From assembly GCF_900198195.1 (NCBI RefSeq), contig NZ_LT899436.1:3934001-3998000 (forward strand): 64,000 nucleotides of DNA, read 5' to 3'. Shown one piece after another: positions 1-6,118 of the stretch. The notes under the pieces were generated by a model. That model was not told the origin of the DNA and searched no databases. It was given only the letters and a program-made list of their open reading frames with translations. Source of the DNA: Tenacibaculum jejuense (lineage in GTDB: Bacteria > Bacteroidota > Bacteroidia > Flavobacteriales > Flavobacteriaceae). Each line of letters starts with the position of its first letter. Within the stretch, counting starts at the first letter, position 1. A program made the translations under genes and the position numbers.

Positions 1-991
1 CTGATAAAGAACATAATTTAATTTTATTTAAAAACTTTCTTCCAGCTTCGATTCCTCCTTTAATTTCAAAAGCTACAATATTACCTCCCAATTTCATCTG
101 CTTTTTTGCTACTTCATATTGAGGATGCGATGGTAAAAAAGGATATTTCACAAAATTTACCGCTGGATGTGCTTCTAAAAATTGAGCTACTTTTAATGCA
201 TTCTGACAATGTTTATCTACTCGAACAGCTAAGGTTTCTAGACTTTTAGATAAAACCCAAGCATTAAATGGTGACATCGCCGGACCAGTATTTCTAGAAA
301 ATAGGTAGATTTCTTTAATCAATTCTGCTTTTCCTACTGTCACTCCACCTAAAACTCTACCTTGTCCGTCAATCAATTTTGTCGCTGAATGAATTACTAA
401 ATCTGCTCCGAATTTTATTGGATTTTGTAAATATGGTGTTGCGAAACAATTGTCTATCACCAATAACAAATTATTTTTTTTAGCAATTTGAGATAAAGCC
501 TCTAAATCCAAAATATCTACTGCTGGATTTGTAGGTGATTCTGCATATAAAATTTTAGTATTCGGTTGGATTAAACTTTCAACTTTATCTAATTCATTAA
601 CTTTAAAATAACTAGTTTCTATATTCCATTTTGGTAAATACTTCGTAAATAAACTGTGTGTTGAACCAAAAACAGAACGTGAAGAAACGATATGATCTCC
701 AGCACTTAATAATGCTGCAAATGTTGAAAACACAGCGCCCATTCCTGTAGCAAATGCATAACCTGCTTCTGCTCCTTCCATTGCAACTATTTTATCTACA
801 AACTCTGTAGTATTTGGATTAGAAAATCTACTGTATAGATTTCTCGGTTTCTCTTCAGCAAAAGATGCTCGCATATCTTCTGCATCATCAAAAACAAAAC
901 TCGATGTTAAATATAATGGTGTAGAATGTTCTGAAAACTGTGAACGTTCTGTCTGAATCCTTACGGCCTGTGTTTCAAAATTCTTACTCAT
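1..991 (-). CDS. metZ: Trans-sulfuration PLP enzyme, O-succinylhomoserine sulfhydrylase-like (C-terminus cut by window edge)
   Basis: This is a Cys/Met-metabolism PLP enzyme of the MetB/MetZ type, expected to join an activated homoserine to sulfide or cysteine. I translated about 330 residues from the ATG at 991; the C-terminus lies outside the window. The PLP-lysine motif reads SATKLIDGQGR, which resembles O-succinylhomoserine sulfhydrylases more than MetY. The sequence PTNPAVDILD also fits the family. The ATG overlaps the stop of the upstream OsmC-like gene by 4 bp (ATGA), so the two are translationally coupled in the SAM-riboswitch operon. The acyl donor (acetyl or succinyl) cannot be decided from sequence; the operon encodes an acetyltransferase-like MetX, so O-acetylhomoserine is possible. 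Confidence 0.85.
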   Translation of the reverse strand, partial: MSKNFETQAVRIQTERSQFSEHSTPLYLTSSFVFDDAEDMRASFAEEKPRNLYSRFSNPNTTEFVDKIVAMEGAEAGYAFATGMGAVFSTFAALLSAGDHIVSSRSVFGSTHSLFTKYLPKWNIETSYFKVNELDKVESLIQPNTKILYAESPTNPAVDILDLEALSQIAKKNNLLLVIDNCFATPYLQNPIKFGADLVIHSATKLIDGQGRVLGGVTVGKAELIKEIYLFSRNTGPAMSPFNAWVLSKSLETLAVRVDKHCQNALKVAQFLEAHPAVNFVKYPFLPSHPQYEVAKKQMKLGGNIVAFEIKGGIEAGRKFLNKIKLCSLS

Positions 992-1410
992 ATCTCTTCG
1001 TTATTCAAAATAATTTTATAGTTAATTTTAGCTGTTTGCTCTATAATCTTAGCTACAGAACAATATTTTTCTACTGCTAAACTTGTTGCCTTTTTTACTT
1101 TTGCACTACTTACGGTTCCATTAAAACTATACGTAATGGTGATATCTTGAAAAATTGCTGGTATTTCATCTTCTTTACGAGTAGCGTCTATTGAAACATT
1201 ATAATCGAAATCGTAAACCTTTTGTTTGTTTAGAATTTTTACGACATCGATACTACTGCAACTTGCCAGACTTACTAACATTAATTCCATCGGACGAATA
1301 GCATTTACTGAAGTTTCATCTTGAGTTTGCCCCACTAATAATGAATAACCCGTTTGATTTTTTGCTTCAAATAATAGGTGTTTGTTATAATTTTTTAGTT
1401 GAATGTTCAT
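988..1410 (-). CDS. OsmC/Ohr-family protein
   Basis: This 140-residue protein has the OsmC fold signature: a first cysteine in LASCSSIDVV (Cys51) and a second in EKYCSVAKI (Cys117). These correspond to the two redox cysteines that reduce organic hydroperoxides in OsmC/Ohr proteins. It lies 5 bp downstream of the metX-thrA fusion and overlaps the next gene by 4 bp, so it is a member of the methionine operon. A role in sulfur redox or peroxide detoxification is inferred from the family; why it sits in this operon is unclear. There is no signal peptide, so it is cytoplasmic. Confidence 0.85.
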   Translation of the reverse strand: MNIQLKNYNKHLLFEAKNQTGYSLLVGQTQDETSVNAIRPMELMLVSLASCSSIDVVKILNKQKVYDFDYNVSIDATRKEDEIPAIFQDITITYSFNGTVSSAKVKKATSLAVEKYCSVAKIIEQTAKINYKIILNNEEI

Positions 1411-1415
1411 TTGTT

Positions 1416-4400
1416 TTATTTTTTTGTTAATCGTAAAATATCTCCGAATACACCTCTTGCTGTAACTTCTGCTCCGGCTCCAGCTCCTTGAATAACTAGC
1501 GGTTGATCTCCATAAGATTCTGTGTAAATTTCAAATATGGCATCAGATCCTTTTAAGCTTCCAAGTGGTGTATCTTTAGCTACAGAAACTAGTTTTACGT
1601 CTAATTCTCCTTTATTTTGTTGTAAGTCTCCATGTAAATCTCCAATATATCTTAGTACATGATTTTCTTTTTGATCTGACTTTTCCGTAGTGTAATATGG
1701 ATCTAACTTTGTTGTATTTGATAAGAAATCTTCAACACTTCCTGATCTCAATTCTTCTGGAATTAAATTCTGAATTTGAATATCTTCAAACTCATTTTCT
1801 AAATCTAATTCTCTAGCTAGGATTAAAAGTTTTCGGGCTACATCATTTCCGCATAAATCTTCTCTAGGATCTGGCTCTGTATATCCATTTTTAATAGCTT
1901 CGGATAACACTTCTGAAAATGAAGTTTCCTTTTCAGAAAATGTATTGAAAATAAAACTTAATGATCCTGAAAAAACTCCTCTAATTCTCGTAATATTTTC
2001 TCCAGAATCGTGTAATAATTTTATAGTATCGATTAATGGTAATCCTGCACCTACGTTGGTTTCGTAGAGATATGTTTTTTTATTTTCTTCTAAAACATCT
2101 CGTAATTCTTTATAAAAAGAATGCTCAACTGTATTGGCTATTTTGTTAGATGAAACTAAATCGAAACCTGCTTTTACTAAAGGAATATAATTGTGTACAA
2201 AATCTTTACTGGCGGTATTATCAACAGCGATTAAGTTTTCTAAATGATGTGCTTTTACAAAACGTATCACTTCTTCTATACTGTTACTTATATCGCTATT
2301 ATCCAGATTGTCTTTCCAGTTTTCATCTATTCCGTTTTTACTTAACAATACATTTTTAGAATTGGCTACGGCAAAAATATTTAACTGGACTTTTCTTCTT
2401 TCTAAGATGTTTTTTGCACTTGCTAAAATTTGTTCAATTAAGGTTCCACCAACTAAACCTTTTCCGAAAATTGCAATGTTTATTTTTTTCGCTACTCCGA
2501 AAACCTGACCGTGAATTACATTAACCGCTTTGTGTAATTCTTCCTTTTTCACCACTAAACTCACATTCTTTCCAGAGATTGTATTATTGAATAATAATGG
2601 AACTATTTGGTTCTGAATTAAAGCATTGTATGGCAAATGGAATTCGCTAAGGTCTTGACCAATAATTGAAATGACAGCAACGTTATTTACTATTGTGATT
2701 TGATTAACATCTTTAGTAATTAAGTCTTGTGCAAATTCTTGTTCTAAAGCTTTAACTGCTAATTCTGATTTTTCTTTATCAACCACCAATCCAATTCCTC
2801 TTTCTGAAGAACCTTGAGAAATAATACTAACACTTATTCCATGATTTCCTAAAGATTTAAAAATACGTGCATCTACTCCGATTTTACCTAACAAACCTCT
2901 TCCTTCAAAATTTAGTAAAGCTACATTTTCTAATACTGAAATTGATTTGATTCCTTTAGTCTTACTTTTTGAAGTAATTAAAGTTCCAGCATCCTTAGGG
3001 TTAAAAGTGTTTAAAATTCTAAGATTTATATTCTTTTCTATTAACGGAATAATTGTTTTTGCATGTAAAATATTCGCTCCGAAATTTGCTAATTCATTCG
3101 CTTCAGAAAATGAAAGTTCTTCAATCTTTTTAGCTTCACTAACCAAATCTGGATTTGCAGTAAAAATCCCATCTACATGTGTATAATTCTGTAATTCTTC
3201 TGCATCTAAATAATTTGCCAATAAAGATGCTGTATAATTACTTCCGTTTCTACCTAGAGTAGTTGTTTCATTCTTTAAATTTGAAGCGATATAACCAGAA
3301 ACAATATTAACTGTACTTCCGTTATGCTCTTTAAAATGATTTACAACATTCTCTTTAGAAAGTGTATCTATAGGTTGTGCATTTCCAAAACTTTCATCAG
3401 TTTTTAGTAAAACTCTAGCATCTGTTGCATGAGCTGGAATTCCTCTTTGCTGTAATAATTCTGTTACTGTTTTTATCGAAATTAACTCACCTTGAGCTAA
3501 AACCTCATCTTTTGTTTTATTACTATAGTCACCCAATAAGCTTACTCCTTCAAATAACTTTTCTAGTTTTTGAAACTCATTAGAAAAATCTAATAATGGT
3601 GTAATTTTAGTTTGCTCATATTTAAAAGCTTCTAATTGCTCTTGATAAGTTTCACTTTTTGAGGCACGTTCTAAAATTGATTCTAATTCGTTTGTAGCAT
3701 TTCCTCTTGCTGAAACTACAACTGTAATATGCTCTCCTTTATTTATTTTATTTTCTATAATATTGATGACATTATCAATTCCTTGATTTGATAAGGATTT
3801 CCCACCAAATTTTAAAACTTTCATCTTTTTAGCTTTTGGATTTTCTTTAAAAATTGATCCGAATATTTTTTCTAGTTGTTCATATTCAATTAAAAATGCA
3901 TCGTGTCCGTGCACAGAATTAATTTCATTGTACGTTACATTAGGATGTTTTTGTGCTAGTTTTTTATGCGTTTCTCTATTTTCTTCCGCAGTAAAAAACA
4001 AATCAGAATCTACTCCAATAATGTGAATATTGGCTTTAATGTTTTCTAAAATATCTTCTGTGTTTTCTCCTTGAGTTACATCAATCGTTTTTAGCAACTG
4101 ATTCATTAATTTATATGAAGCCAATTGGTAACGCTCTTGTAATTTTTTCCCGTGATGTAACAACCAACTTTCTACATTGAAAATTTGTAAACTCTCGTTT
4201 TTACTTCTCTGGAATCGTTGTTTAAATGATGCTGGAGTTCTGTAACATAACATCGCATGAATTCTAGCATCGTGGACTGGATTTTTAGAATTGGTTAAAA
4301 ACAATTCTTGAATTTGACAGTTGGCAATTAACCAATCTGTAGATTTCCAATCTGTTGCTATAGGAATTAAATGCTCTGTGATTTCTGGCTCTAATACTGC

Positions 4401-4799
4401 CATTTCCCAAGCAATTCCGCCTCCTAAAGAACCTCCGATTAAAGCAAAAAGTTTTTCAACATTCAACTCTTTTAAACCTTGAATAAAGATTTGAGCGACA
4501 TCTCTTGCTATAAAACTTTTGTACTCATCAATTAAAAAATCATCGTAGCCATTACCTGGAATATTGAAACATAAAACAGTGTACTTGTTAGTATCAATGA
4601 TTTTATGTTCACCAATTATGTCTTTCCACCAACCGTCTTCTCCCGCGACATTACTATTCCCTGTTAACGCATGATTAACTAAGATCACTGGTGCTTCATG
4701 AAGTGGTTGTCCGAAAAGCTGGTAAGACAAACGTATTGGGATTGTCTTACCACTTTCTGTTATATAACTAGGTAAATTAATATGGCCTAATGTGTGCAT
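1416..4799 (-). CDS. thrA: Trifunctional fusion: homoserine O-acetyltransferase (MetX)-aspartokinase-homoserine dehydrogenase
   Basis: The protein has 1127 residues in three parts. Residues 1-318 are an alpha/beta-hydrolase MetX domain with HALTG, the nucleophile elbow GGSLGGG (Ser124), Asp266 and His299 in GHDAFL, so the catalytic triad looks complete. Residues 326-770 are an aspartokinase with two ACT domains, beginning KFGGKS where KFGGTS is usual; the conserved GRxGSDY motif reads GRNGSNY, replacing the Asp with Asn. Residues 775-1127 are homoserine dehydrogenase with the nucleotide loop GKGLVGG, NVGAGLP, GYTEPDPREDL and GAGAGAEVTARG. It would make homoserine and then activate it for methionine synthesis. 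It sits 23 bp downstream of metY under the SAM-I riboswitch. The altered kinase site suggests weak or lost aspartokinase activity (inference). Confidence 0.92.
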   Translation of the reverse strand: MHTLGHINLPSYITESGKTIPIRLSYQLFGQPLHEAPVILVNHALTGNSNVAGEDGWWKDIIGEHKIIDTNKYTVLCFNIPGNGYDDFLIDEYKSFIARDVAQIFIQGLKELNVEKLFALIGGSLGGGIAWEMAVLEPEITEHLIPIATDWKSTDWLIANCQIQELFLTNSKNPVHDARIHAMLCYRTPASFKQRFQRSKNESLQIFNVESWLLHHGKKLQERYQLASYKLMNQLLKTIDVTQGENTEDILENIKANIHIIGVDSDLFFTAEENRETHKKLAQKHPNVTYNEINSVHGHDAFLIEYEQLEKIFGSIFKENPKAKKMKVLKFGGKSLSNQGIDNVINIIENKINKGEHITVVVSARGNATNELESILERASKSETYQEQLEAFKYEQTKITPLLDFSNEFQKLEKLFEGVSLLGDYSNKTKDEVLAQGELISIKTVTELLQQRGIPAHATDARVLLKTDESFGNAQPIDTLSKENVVNHFKEHNGSTVNIVSGYIASNLKNETTTLGRNGSNYTASLLANYLDAEELQNYTHVDGIFTANPDLVSEAKKIEELSFSEANELANFGANILHAKTIIPLIEKNINLRILNTFNPKDAGTLITSKSKTKGIKSISVLENVALLNFEGRGLLGKIGVDARIFKSLGNHGISVSIISQGSSERGIGLVVDKEKSELAVKALEQEFAQDLITKDVNQITIVNNVAVISIIGQDLSEFHLPYNALIQNQIVPLLFNNTISGKNVSLVVKKEELHKAVNVIHGQVFGVAKKINIAIFGKGLVGGTLIEQILASAKNILERRKVQLNIFAVANSKNVLLSKNGIDENWKDNLDNSDISNSIEEVIRFVKAHHLENLIAVDNTASKDFVHNYIPLVKAGFDLVSSNKIANTVEHSFYKELRDVLEENKKTYLYETNVGAGLPLIDTIKLLHDSGENITRIRGVFSGSLSFIFNTFSEKETSFSEVLSEAIKNGYTEPDPREDLCGNDVARKLLILARELDLENEFEDIQIQNLIPEELRSGSVEDFLSNTTKLDPYYTTEKSDQKENHVLRYIGDLHGDLQQNKGELDVKLVSVAKDTPLGSLKGSDAIFEIYTESYGDQPLVIQGAGAGAEVTARGVFGDILRLTKK

Positions 4800-4822: not shown

Positions 4823-6118
4823 TTATTCTTGAATTACTAACAGATTTACAGCTTTAAAAGCTTCTTTTAAATCAGACTTTAAATCTTCAACATTTTCTAA
4901 TCCTACTGAAAGTCGAATTAAATCTTGCGTTACTCCTGTTGCTTCTTGTTCTTCATCACTCAACTGCTGATGTGTTGTACTTGCTGGATGAATTATTAAA
5001 GATTTTGTATCTCCAATATTTGCTAATAATGAGAATAACTTCGTGTTATCTGCTATAGTTTTTGCTGCTTCGTATCCTTTTTTAGCTCCGAATGTTACAA
5101 TTCCACTTTGACCTTTTGGTAAATATTTATCCGCTAAAGCTTTGTATTTATTTCCCTCTAAACCTGGATAATTTACCCAAGCTACTTCATCTTGTTCTTG
5201 TAACCATTTTGCTAATTCTAAAGCATTTTCACTATGTTTTTGAATTCTTACAGGTAAGGTTTCTAAACCTTGAATGATTTGAAATGCATTGGTCGGACTT
5301 AAAGCCCCTCCAAAATCACGTAATCCTTCTAAAATTAATTTGAATGTAAATGATGCAGCTCCTAAAGTCTCGTAATATTTTAATCCGTGATAACCTGCTG
5401 AAGGTTCAGTGAATTCTGGAAATTTACCATTATCCCAATCAAAATTTCCGGCATCAACAATTACTCCTCCAAGAGAATTTCCTTGTCCACCAATGTATTT
5501 TGTTAAAGAATGAATAACAATGTTTGCACCGTATTCAATTGGATTTAGTAAAGATGGTGTAGCAACTGTATTGTCTACGATAAAAGGAACTTTCGCCTTT
5601 TTAGCTTCAGAGGAAATATTCTCAAGATCTAATACATCTAACTTCGGATTTCCTAACGATTCAGCAAAAAATGCTCTTGTGTTTTCCTGTACTGCTTTTC
5701 CGAAATTCTCAGGATCTGATGAATCTACAAAAGTAGTTGTAATTCCTAATCTTGGTAAAGTTACTTTTAGTAAATTATAGGTTCCTCCGTATAAACTACT
5801 AGAAGCTACAATATGATCTCCAGCTCTTAGTAACGTTAATAATCCTGTTGAAATTGCAGCTGTTCCCGAAGCAAAAACTACTGCTCCCACTCCACCTTCT
5901 AAAGCCGCTAAACGTTCTTGCAAAATTTGATTTGTTGGATTATTTAAGCGTGTGTATATAAATCCTAATTCTTTTAATGAAAATAAATTAGCTGCATGAT
6001 CTGCATTATTAAACACATATGAAGTGGTTTGATAAATTGGAACTGCTCTTGTTCCTCCTGTTTGTGTTACATCATGCCCAGCATGTAATGCATTTGTTTC
6101 GAATTGTAATGTACTCAT
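4823..6118 (-). CDS. metY: O-acetylhomoserine sulfhydrylase
   Basis: This 431-residue PLP enzyme converts O-acetylhomoserine plus sulfide to homocysteine. Its length and motifs fit MetY: ETNALHAGHD at the N-terminus, the TARLNNPT-like TRLNNPT substrate region, VDNTVATP, and the PLP lysine Lys207 in HSLTKYIGGQG. It is the first gene after the SAM-I riboswitch and is followed 23 bp later by the MetX-AK-HSD fusion that would make its substrate. Regulation by S-adenosylmethionine through the leader is strongly indicated. No unusual residues were seen. Confidence 0.93.
   Translation of the reverse strand: MSTLQFETNALHAGHDVTQTGGTRAVPIYQTTSYVFNNADHAANLFSLKELGFIYTRLNNPTNQILQERLAALEGGVGAVVFASGTAAISTGLLTLLRAGDHIVASSSLYGGTYNLLKVTLPRLGITTTFVDSSDPENFGKAVQENTRAFFAESLGNPKLDVLDLENISSEAKKAKVPFIVDNTVATPSLLNPIEYGANIVIHSLTKYIGGQGNSLGGVIVDAGNFDWDNGKFPEFTEPSAGYHGLKYYETLGAASFTFKLILEGLRDFGGALSPTNAFQIIQGLETLPVRIQKHSENALELAKWLQEQDEVAWVNYPGLEGNKYKALADKYLPKGQSGIVTFGAKKGYEAAKTIADNTKLFSLLANIGDTKSLIIHPASTTHQQLSDEEQEATGVTQDLIRLSVGLENVEDLKSDLKEAFKAVNLLVIQE

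Follow-up and report, generated by a model that had tools for sequence, protein, structure and literature searches.

What keeps an enzyme domain in place once the residues of its catalytic site have been replaced? The question is raised by a locus of the Flavobacteriaceae member Tenacibaculum jejuense, in a stretch of 64,000 nucleotides (nt) of assembly GCF_900198195.1 (contig NZ_LT899436.1, positions 3,934,001 to 3,998,000 of the forward strand; hereafter the window, numbered from its first letter). There a single minus-strand open reading frame (ORF, 1416..4799) of 1127 amino acids with an ATG start joins MetX, an aspartokinase lobe, two ACT domains and homoserine dehydrogenase, in this order. 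We propose, with a probability of roughly 0.78, that the protein is a homoserine dehydrogenase and acyltransferase dedicated to methionine synthesis, carrying a conserved pseudo-aspartokinase whose role would be structural or possibly ligand-responsive.

We aligned the lobe (~residues 326–612, 2964..3824, delimited by Pfam and alignments) with E. coli LysC, ThrA and MetL, and use LysC numbering throughout. The original prediction, made from this DNA alone, had described the fusion and two altered kinase motifs, and both motifs lie where it placed them. In KFGGKS (residues 330–335, 3795..3812), K330 corresponds to the retained K8 and K334 replaces T12; in GRNGSNY (residues 516–522, 3234..3254), R517 corresponds to the retained R198 and N521 replaces D202. 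These changes are real, but the alteration is wider than had been noted: TDV has become THV, and in NYTHVDG (3168..3188) N538, Y539 and H541 occupy the positions of I219, W220 and D222, while in FGANILH (3063..3083) N576 occupies that of K257. Nor is it confined to one protein. Our clade set holds 81 kinase-lobe rows (53 fused, 18 unfused and 10 from a sister family), a number that includes the window's own protein and one gene twice (L068 and L091, both from genome G396) and may include the same species from two collections. Position 202 is Asn in all 81 rows, and D222 has become His in 78, Asn in two and Ile in one. The Thr-to-Lys change at position 12, which had been seen in the single protein, is nearly fixed across the clade (K in 76, R in three). 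R or K at position 232 and K257 are each found in none of the 81 rows, and I219, W220 and P261 are missing from almost every row.

For comparison we assembled 81 canonical aspartokinases, from the 30 best loci, 10 picked ThrA sequences, 40 lower-ranked rows picked by hand while avoiding clade rows, two from the T. jejuense genome and three from E. coli, minus four kinase-like rows that are divergent and score low. Every one of the 81 has D202 as well as D222, and none has N202 or H222. The original prediction had asked whether Asn at the GRxGSDY aspartate is common in aspartokinases; it is not, Asp being found there in 81 of 81 canonical rows, or 81 of 85 with the divergent rows added (D222, 84 of 85). 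Of the 30 columns in which the canonical set is 95% or more invariant, the clade retains 25 (in 80% or more of its rows) and has lost five, namely D202, I219, W220, D222 and P261. The four divergent rows (L198, L199, L200 and L202, from genomes G823, G847, G835 and G820) are aspartokinase-like sequences of ~400 residues from other members of the phylum, with Asn or Thr at the D202 position (Asn in two of the four) and Lys for R198, and possibly form a second, independent group of degenerate kinases.

From alignment by eye, we take D202 to be the equivalent of D162 of acetylglutamate kinase, and D222, R232 and K257 to line the nucleotide site. The residues that the clade retains tell a different story from those it has lost: K8, S39, A40, T45, E119 and S201 are present in 81 of 81 rows, R198 in 79 and F184 in 75 (Tyr in the other six). 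The excerpted text of one source gives E119, R198, A40, T45, F184 and S201 as the aspartate contacts of LysC (PMC5481828), and that of another describes K8 and D162 of acetylglutamate kinase as key catalytic residues on structural and mutational grounds (PMC2851564). The substrate side of the lobe thus looks intact in alignment, while the nucleotide side does not. With both catalytic-site aspartates and the basic residues at 232 and 257 gone, the lobe is very probably unable to phosphorylate aspartate. Judged from the aligned rows, the change is a property of the whole methionine-branch clade, and replacement of catalytic residues across an entire conserved clade, as found in these 81 rows, is what marks a pseudoenzyme.

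Despite these replacements the lobe shows no sign of decay, being as conserved as that of ThrA at equal divergence of the dehydrogenase. For pairs with a dehydrogenase identity of 0.55–0.65, the clade gives identities of 0.47 in the N-terminal and 0.67 in the C-terminal part of the lobe (1236 pairs), and ThrA gives 0.47 and 0.68 (six pairs); for pairs at 0.45–0.55 they are 0.38 and 0.63 in the clade (90 pairs) and 0.38 and 0.62 in ThrA (25 pairs). Conservation matching that of ThrA therefore argues for a maintained function.

The fusion itself is borne out as one reading frame, on a strand that the original prediction had left unstated. Pfam places Abhydrolase_1 at residues 37–148, AA_kinase at 325–597, ACT_9 at 631–689, NAD_binding_3 at 779–913 and Homoserine_dh at 921–1122; borders between domains are approximate. 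The NCBIfam ThrA model NF006959 matches residues 326–1126 with 759.6 bits, above its cut-off of 726. M326, where the start codon of an unfused form would lie, is the same in all 16 sequences of an alignment. We rejected an artefact of assembly or frameshift, since the same single frame (1127–1134 amino acids) occurs in 17 named relatives, the nearest of them, from uncultured Tenacibaculum, being 98% identical.

The two flanking enzymes appear complete. The MetX domain (~residues 1–321, 3837..4799) has the catalytic triad S124, D266 and H299 exactly where it had been predicted, together with the tunnel residues T46, R179, Y186 and D300. This Ser-Asp-His triad and the Thr/Arg/Tyr/Asp tunnel residues, whose roles were transferred by motif from the excerpted description in PMC6937278, are complete in every one of the 99 loci that yielded the domain, out of 102 searched. 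The dehydrogenase (~residues 772–1127, 1419..2486) carries GxGxxG, K886, E975, D986 and K990, so that the earlier description of its motifs as complete holds as well. Across the loci, GxGxxG, NK, EPDP and DVARK, chosen after the yeast enzyme, are complete in 101 of 101 loci with the domain (102 searched; the domain counted as found at 45% identity or more). We infer that both activities are present. The fusion is the only MetX match in the genome, where no match to MetA (PF04204) was found. The acyl group is probably acetyl, and the donor presumably an acetyl donor, because metY, which matches an O-acetylhomoserine sulfhydrylase model, lies behind the same riboswitch. A stand-alone homoserine dehydrogenase (385 amino acids between stops, 43% identical to that of the fusion) lies between metY and metX in genome G396 (L091 1798–2952, plus strand), which also has a metX and kinase-dehydrogenase pair.

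Between the lobe and the dehydrogenase lies the ACT pair (~residues 613–768, 2496..2963). The Gln-Gly-Ser-Ser-Glu motif of ACT1 is kept in the fused and unfused rows inspected, and kinase-less rows read QQAIE. In ACT2 the motif is lost together with a four-residue deletion in the fused, unfused and kinase-less forms alike, NNTISGK replacing QGSSE in the fusion. The corresponding glutamines of plant aspartokinase-homoserine dehydrogenase (AK-HSD) bind threonine. Because the effector motif of ACT2 is lost, it is plausible that the dehydrogenase has been freed from threonine feedback.

The genes around the fusion point to methionine. Twenty-three nt upstream, on the same strand, lies metY (4823..6118), of the O-acetylhomoserine sulfhydrylase family (TIGR01326, 631.5 bits, cut-off 495.1), preceded by an S-adenosylmethionine (SAM) riboswitch aptamer of class SAM-I (RF00162; 6246..6354, minus strand). 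The aptamer is complete (1–108) and scores 85.8 bits against the covariance model, clearing the gathering threshold of 44.4. Such an aptamer was found in eight of eight fused, one of one kinase-less and eight of 12 unfused loci examined. An OsmC-like gene (988..1410, minus strand; ORF and Pfam) follows 5 nt downstream of the fusion. Further downstream, just outside the window (L009 5498–8992, minus strand), are a second sulfhydrylase-type gene of the pyridoxal phosphate class, an Rrf2-type regulator and cysH/cysD-like genes, all named from their translations, and sulfur-assimilation and methionine genes seem, from this gene order, to form one joined cluster around the fusion. SAM-II riboswitch matches (RF01726) share loci with the SAM-I aptamer in L014, L021, L022, L076, L077, L078, L081, L083 and L086, placing two SAM riboswitch classes near one locus; in eight of these nine they are opposite in strand to the metX genes.

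The aspartate pathway of the organism has other kinases to draw on. The genome (4.61 Mb, one contig) has a thrA with intact kinase motifs followed by two genes read as thrB and thrC, and it holds two homoserine dehydrogenases. The search for a separate lysC that had been suggested finds one, of 417 amino acids, besides this full thrA-thrB-thrC operon, and both ThrA and LysC keep the two aspartates. Of 60 genomes sampled from the family, 33 carry the fusion, and each of these has a further kinase frame of ThrA size (hand count, by size only). A kinase-less genome, G319, has a single aspartokinase at an E-value of 1e-40 or better, of LysC type.

How widespread is this arrangement? A collinear match from MetX to dehydrogenase was counted by hand in at least 139 of 299 genomes of the family, in at least 134 of them free of in-frame stops; stops interrupt the match in G179, G193, G003, G237 and G016. 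Across the class, 396 sampled genomes included 18 with a match at 1e-165 or better; 10 of these matches are collinear (one has an in-frame stop), and every one of the 10 comes from the window's family. The sister family gave one collinear match, G713, with two in-frame stops, where metX and the kinase-dehydrogenase are separate ORFs. We fetched 18 loci for gene order, mostly chosen for an unfused match. In 17 of them metX precedes the kinase-dehydrogenase on the same strand. In 15 the two overlap or lie within ~150 nt of each other, and the gap is ~315 nt in L088 and ~760 nt in L080; the eighteenth locus, L090, is ThrA.

In the sister family the lobe has been deleted. By hand count, the match begins no earlier than residue 591–620 in 45 of 120 genomes. 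In all 20 loci of this kind that were read (L089 and L105–L123), metX is followed by an ORF of ~513–550 residues that lacks the kinase lobe and has its first Met just before ACT1, so that the ACT domains and dehydrogenase stay beside metX. The lobe is separate from the ACT pair, which corrects the earlier suggestion that the kinase part may be an allosteric ACT module. Ten lobe-keeping genomes of the sister family were read, and all 10 have N202 and H222. L104, which looked like a kinase deletion, was rejected, as its contig ends there and MetX with a piece of the kinase lies at the end of another contig of the same genome (L164); in L166 the architecture is unreadable across a run of N. Both forms seem to occur in genome G777, where a complete kinase-dehydrogenase adjoins metX (L102) and a kinase-less ACT-dehydrogenase lies on another contig (L165); the assembly is fragmented (390 contigs, 5% contamination).

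A first tree of 84 rows included L104. A second tree, of the ACT and dehydrogenase parts of 56 of the 118 rows, was run with a careful setting and without L104 and L166. Here ThrA stands apart from the clade (support 100/100). The deepest clade row is unfused and has N202 and N222. The 12 kinase-less rows all fall in a single clade (100/100), whose sister is made up of kinase-bearing rows from their own family (99/90). Fused rows are intermixed with unfused ones, and the starred branches force at least two changes between the two states. The kinase residue change looks older in this tree than the MetX fusion, because the unfused orthologs and the deepest row have it. The order that the tree supports but does not prove is that the aspartates were lost first, with MetX fusion following in one family and deletion of the lobe in another.

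SAM-I riboswitches should allow transcription when SAM is low. At this locus, low SAM would let metY and the fusion be transcribed. The other aspartokinases, ThrA and LysC, would feed aspartyl phosphate into the pathway; the dehydrogenase part would convert aspartate semialdehyde to homoserine, the MetX part would acylate it, and MetY would turn the acylated homoserine into homocysteine. The lobe, joined to the ACT module, would be under selection either because it holds the assembly together or because an amino acid binds in its former aspartate pocket.

Several observations weigh against this proposal. K8, T221 and all but two of the R198 residues are kept in the clade, and the new lysine at position 12 might compensate for what was lost. 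Losses at 232 and 257 are not diagnostic and are weaker evidence than the aspartates, because canonical rows vary there too (position 232, R in 57 and K in 19 of 81; position 257, K in 61, R in seven and S in seven), including the organism's own ThrA (Thr at 232) and LysC (Ser at 257); E. coli MetL has Pro at 257. The conservation of the lobe would equally fit a kinase that is still active or has been re-tooled, and its deletion in another family does not prove that it is inactive in the lineage of the window. On the evolutionary side, a tree that makes the kinase-bearing rows one clade is 20.9 log units worse and is not rejected in an approximately unbiased (AU) test (p-AU 0.186), which is why the order of loss and deletion is not proven. 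The MetX part falls below the curated cut-off of the MetX_acetyl model TIGR01392 (residues 12–314, 183 bits, E 8e-54; cut-off 500), one that none of nine matching control genomes reached either. No SAM-I aptamer was found in four of the 12 unfused loci. An AlphaFold2 prediction of the full-length fusion from a shallow alignment of 16 sequences was too poor for use (predicted local distance difference test score 61.5, predicted template modelling score 0.35).

What, then, does the lobe do? It may be a pure scaffold, a sub-case of the pseudo-aspartokinase proposal in which it holds an oligomer of MetX and ACT-dehydrogenase together and binds no ligand. Enzymes of the ThrA type form oligomers by way of these domains, the lobe is conserved, and the unfused form keeps it too, so that a scaffold is a serious candidate, if one we would not bet on. 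However, a scaffold does not need a substrate pocket, and A40, T45, E119 and S201 are invariant, with R198 in 79 and F184 in 75 of the 81 rows, while D202 and D222 are lost; retention of the pocket therefore disfavors a scaffold alone, and the kinase-less family manages without the lobe. More tentatively, the lobe could be a sensor of the aspartate pathway derived from a dead aspartokinase, a possibility that we consider doubtful as it stands. The aspartate pocket would have been kept and the ATP/Mg side dismantled, with the nearly fixed Lys12 providing the positive charge in place of Mg-ATP, and bound aspartate (or homoserine or aspartate semialdehyde), the presumed ligand, would set the rate of homoserine formation and acylation through the ACT pair.

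We consider it unlikely that the lobe is a retuned, active kinase in which Lys12 and His222 replace the usual lysine and aspartate set and which uses another metal, donor or acceptor. The changes are fixed and not random (N202 in 81, H222 in 78 and K12 in 76 of 81 rows), the lobe is as conserved as that of ThrA, and K8 and most aspartate contacts are kept, as such a kinase would have it. However, D202, D222, R232 and K257 are all gone, N202 or H222 occurs in none of the 81 canonical rows (N202 in two of the four left-out divergent rows), a sister clade manages without the lobe, and other aspartokinases are present. A relaxed vestige on its way to deletion would account for the replaced residues and for the real deletion in the sister lineage, but a neutral decaying remnant was rejected for want of any excess divergence of the lobe relative to ThrA, which makes this reading very improbable. 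Least credible is the reading that all three enzymes are ordinary and active. The larger part scores over the cut-off of the ThrA equivalog model and would be annotated by it in this way, but both catalytic-site aspartates are lost in 81 of 81 clade rows.

Among known systems, ThrA (NF006959; E. coli thrA) shares the order of kinase, two ACT domains and dehydrogenase and gives the full-length match over the cut-off. The fusion differs from it in having MetX in front, in the loss of the kinase aspartates and of the ACT2 motif, and in lying in a SAM-riboswitch methionine cluster and not in thrABC. E. coli MetL (AK-HSD II) is likewise the second AK-HSD of its genome and adjoins a methionine gene (metB in E. 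coli, metY here), but it keeps both aspartates; in the first tree it lies on the ThrA side of a branch with a Shimodaira-Hasegawa-like approximate likelihood ratio support (SH-aLRT) of 97, though on a very long branch that leaves its placement unsure. The MetX homoserine O-acetyltransferases (TIGR01392; PDB 2b61 and 2pl5) have the same triad and substrate-tunnel residues, whereas the MetX part of the fusion is ~320 residues long, scores under the model cut-off and is fused at its C-terminus. Pseudokinases and pseudoenzymes in general share with the lobe a conserved fold with replaced catalytic residues; what sets it apart is that its fold is that of amino acid kinases and that it is part of a biosynthetic enzyme. 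Among the hits listed by searches of titles and the openings of abstracts, with most subscription journals outside their reach, none described this fusion or an inactive aspartokinase. The parts are known, and the arrangement is frequent in sequenced genomes of the window's family.

Textbooks present aspartokinase as the enzyme through which the aspartate family is entered, and it is a standard target for engineering. Automatic annotation probably credits the lobe with an activity that is no longer there, and if our proposal is true, many annotations of the ThrA type in these bacteria would be wrong in their aspartokinase half. A ThrA paralog with intact motifs, a conserved dead lobe, its natural deletion and the fusion to MetX together would make the purpose of a metabolic pseudokinase directly testable. 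In a large part of one family (at least 134 of 299 genomes in the fused form, by hand count), a lobe without its catalytic-site aspartates would yet be under selection.

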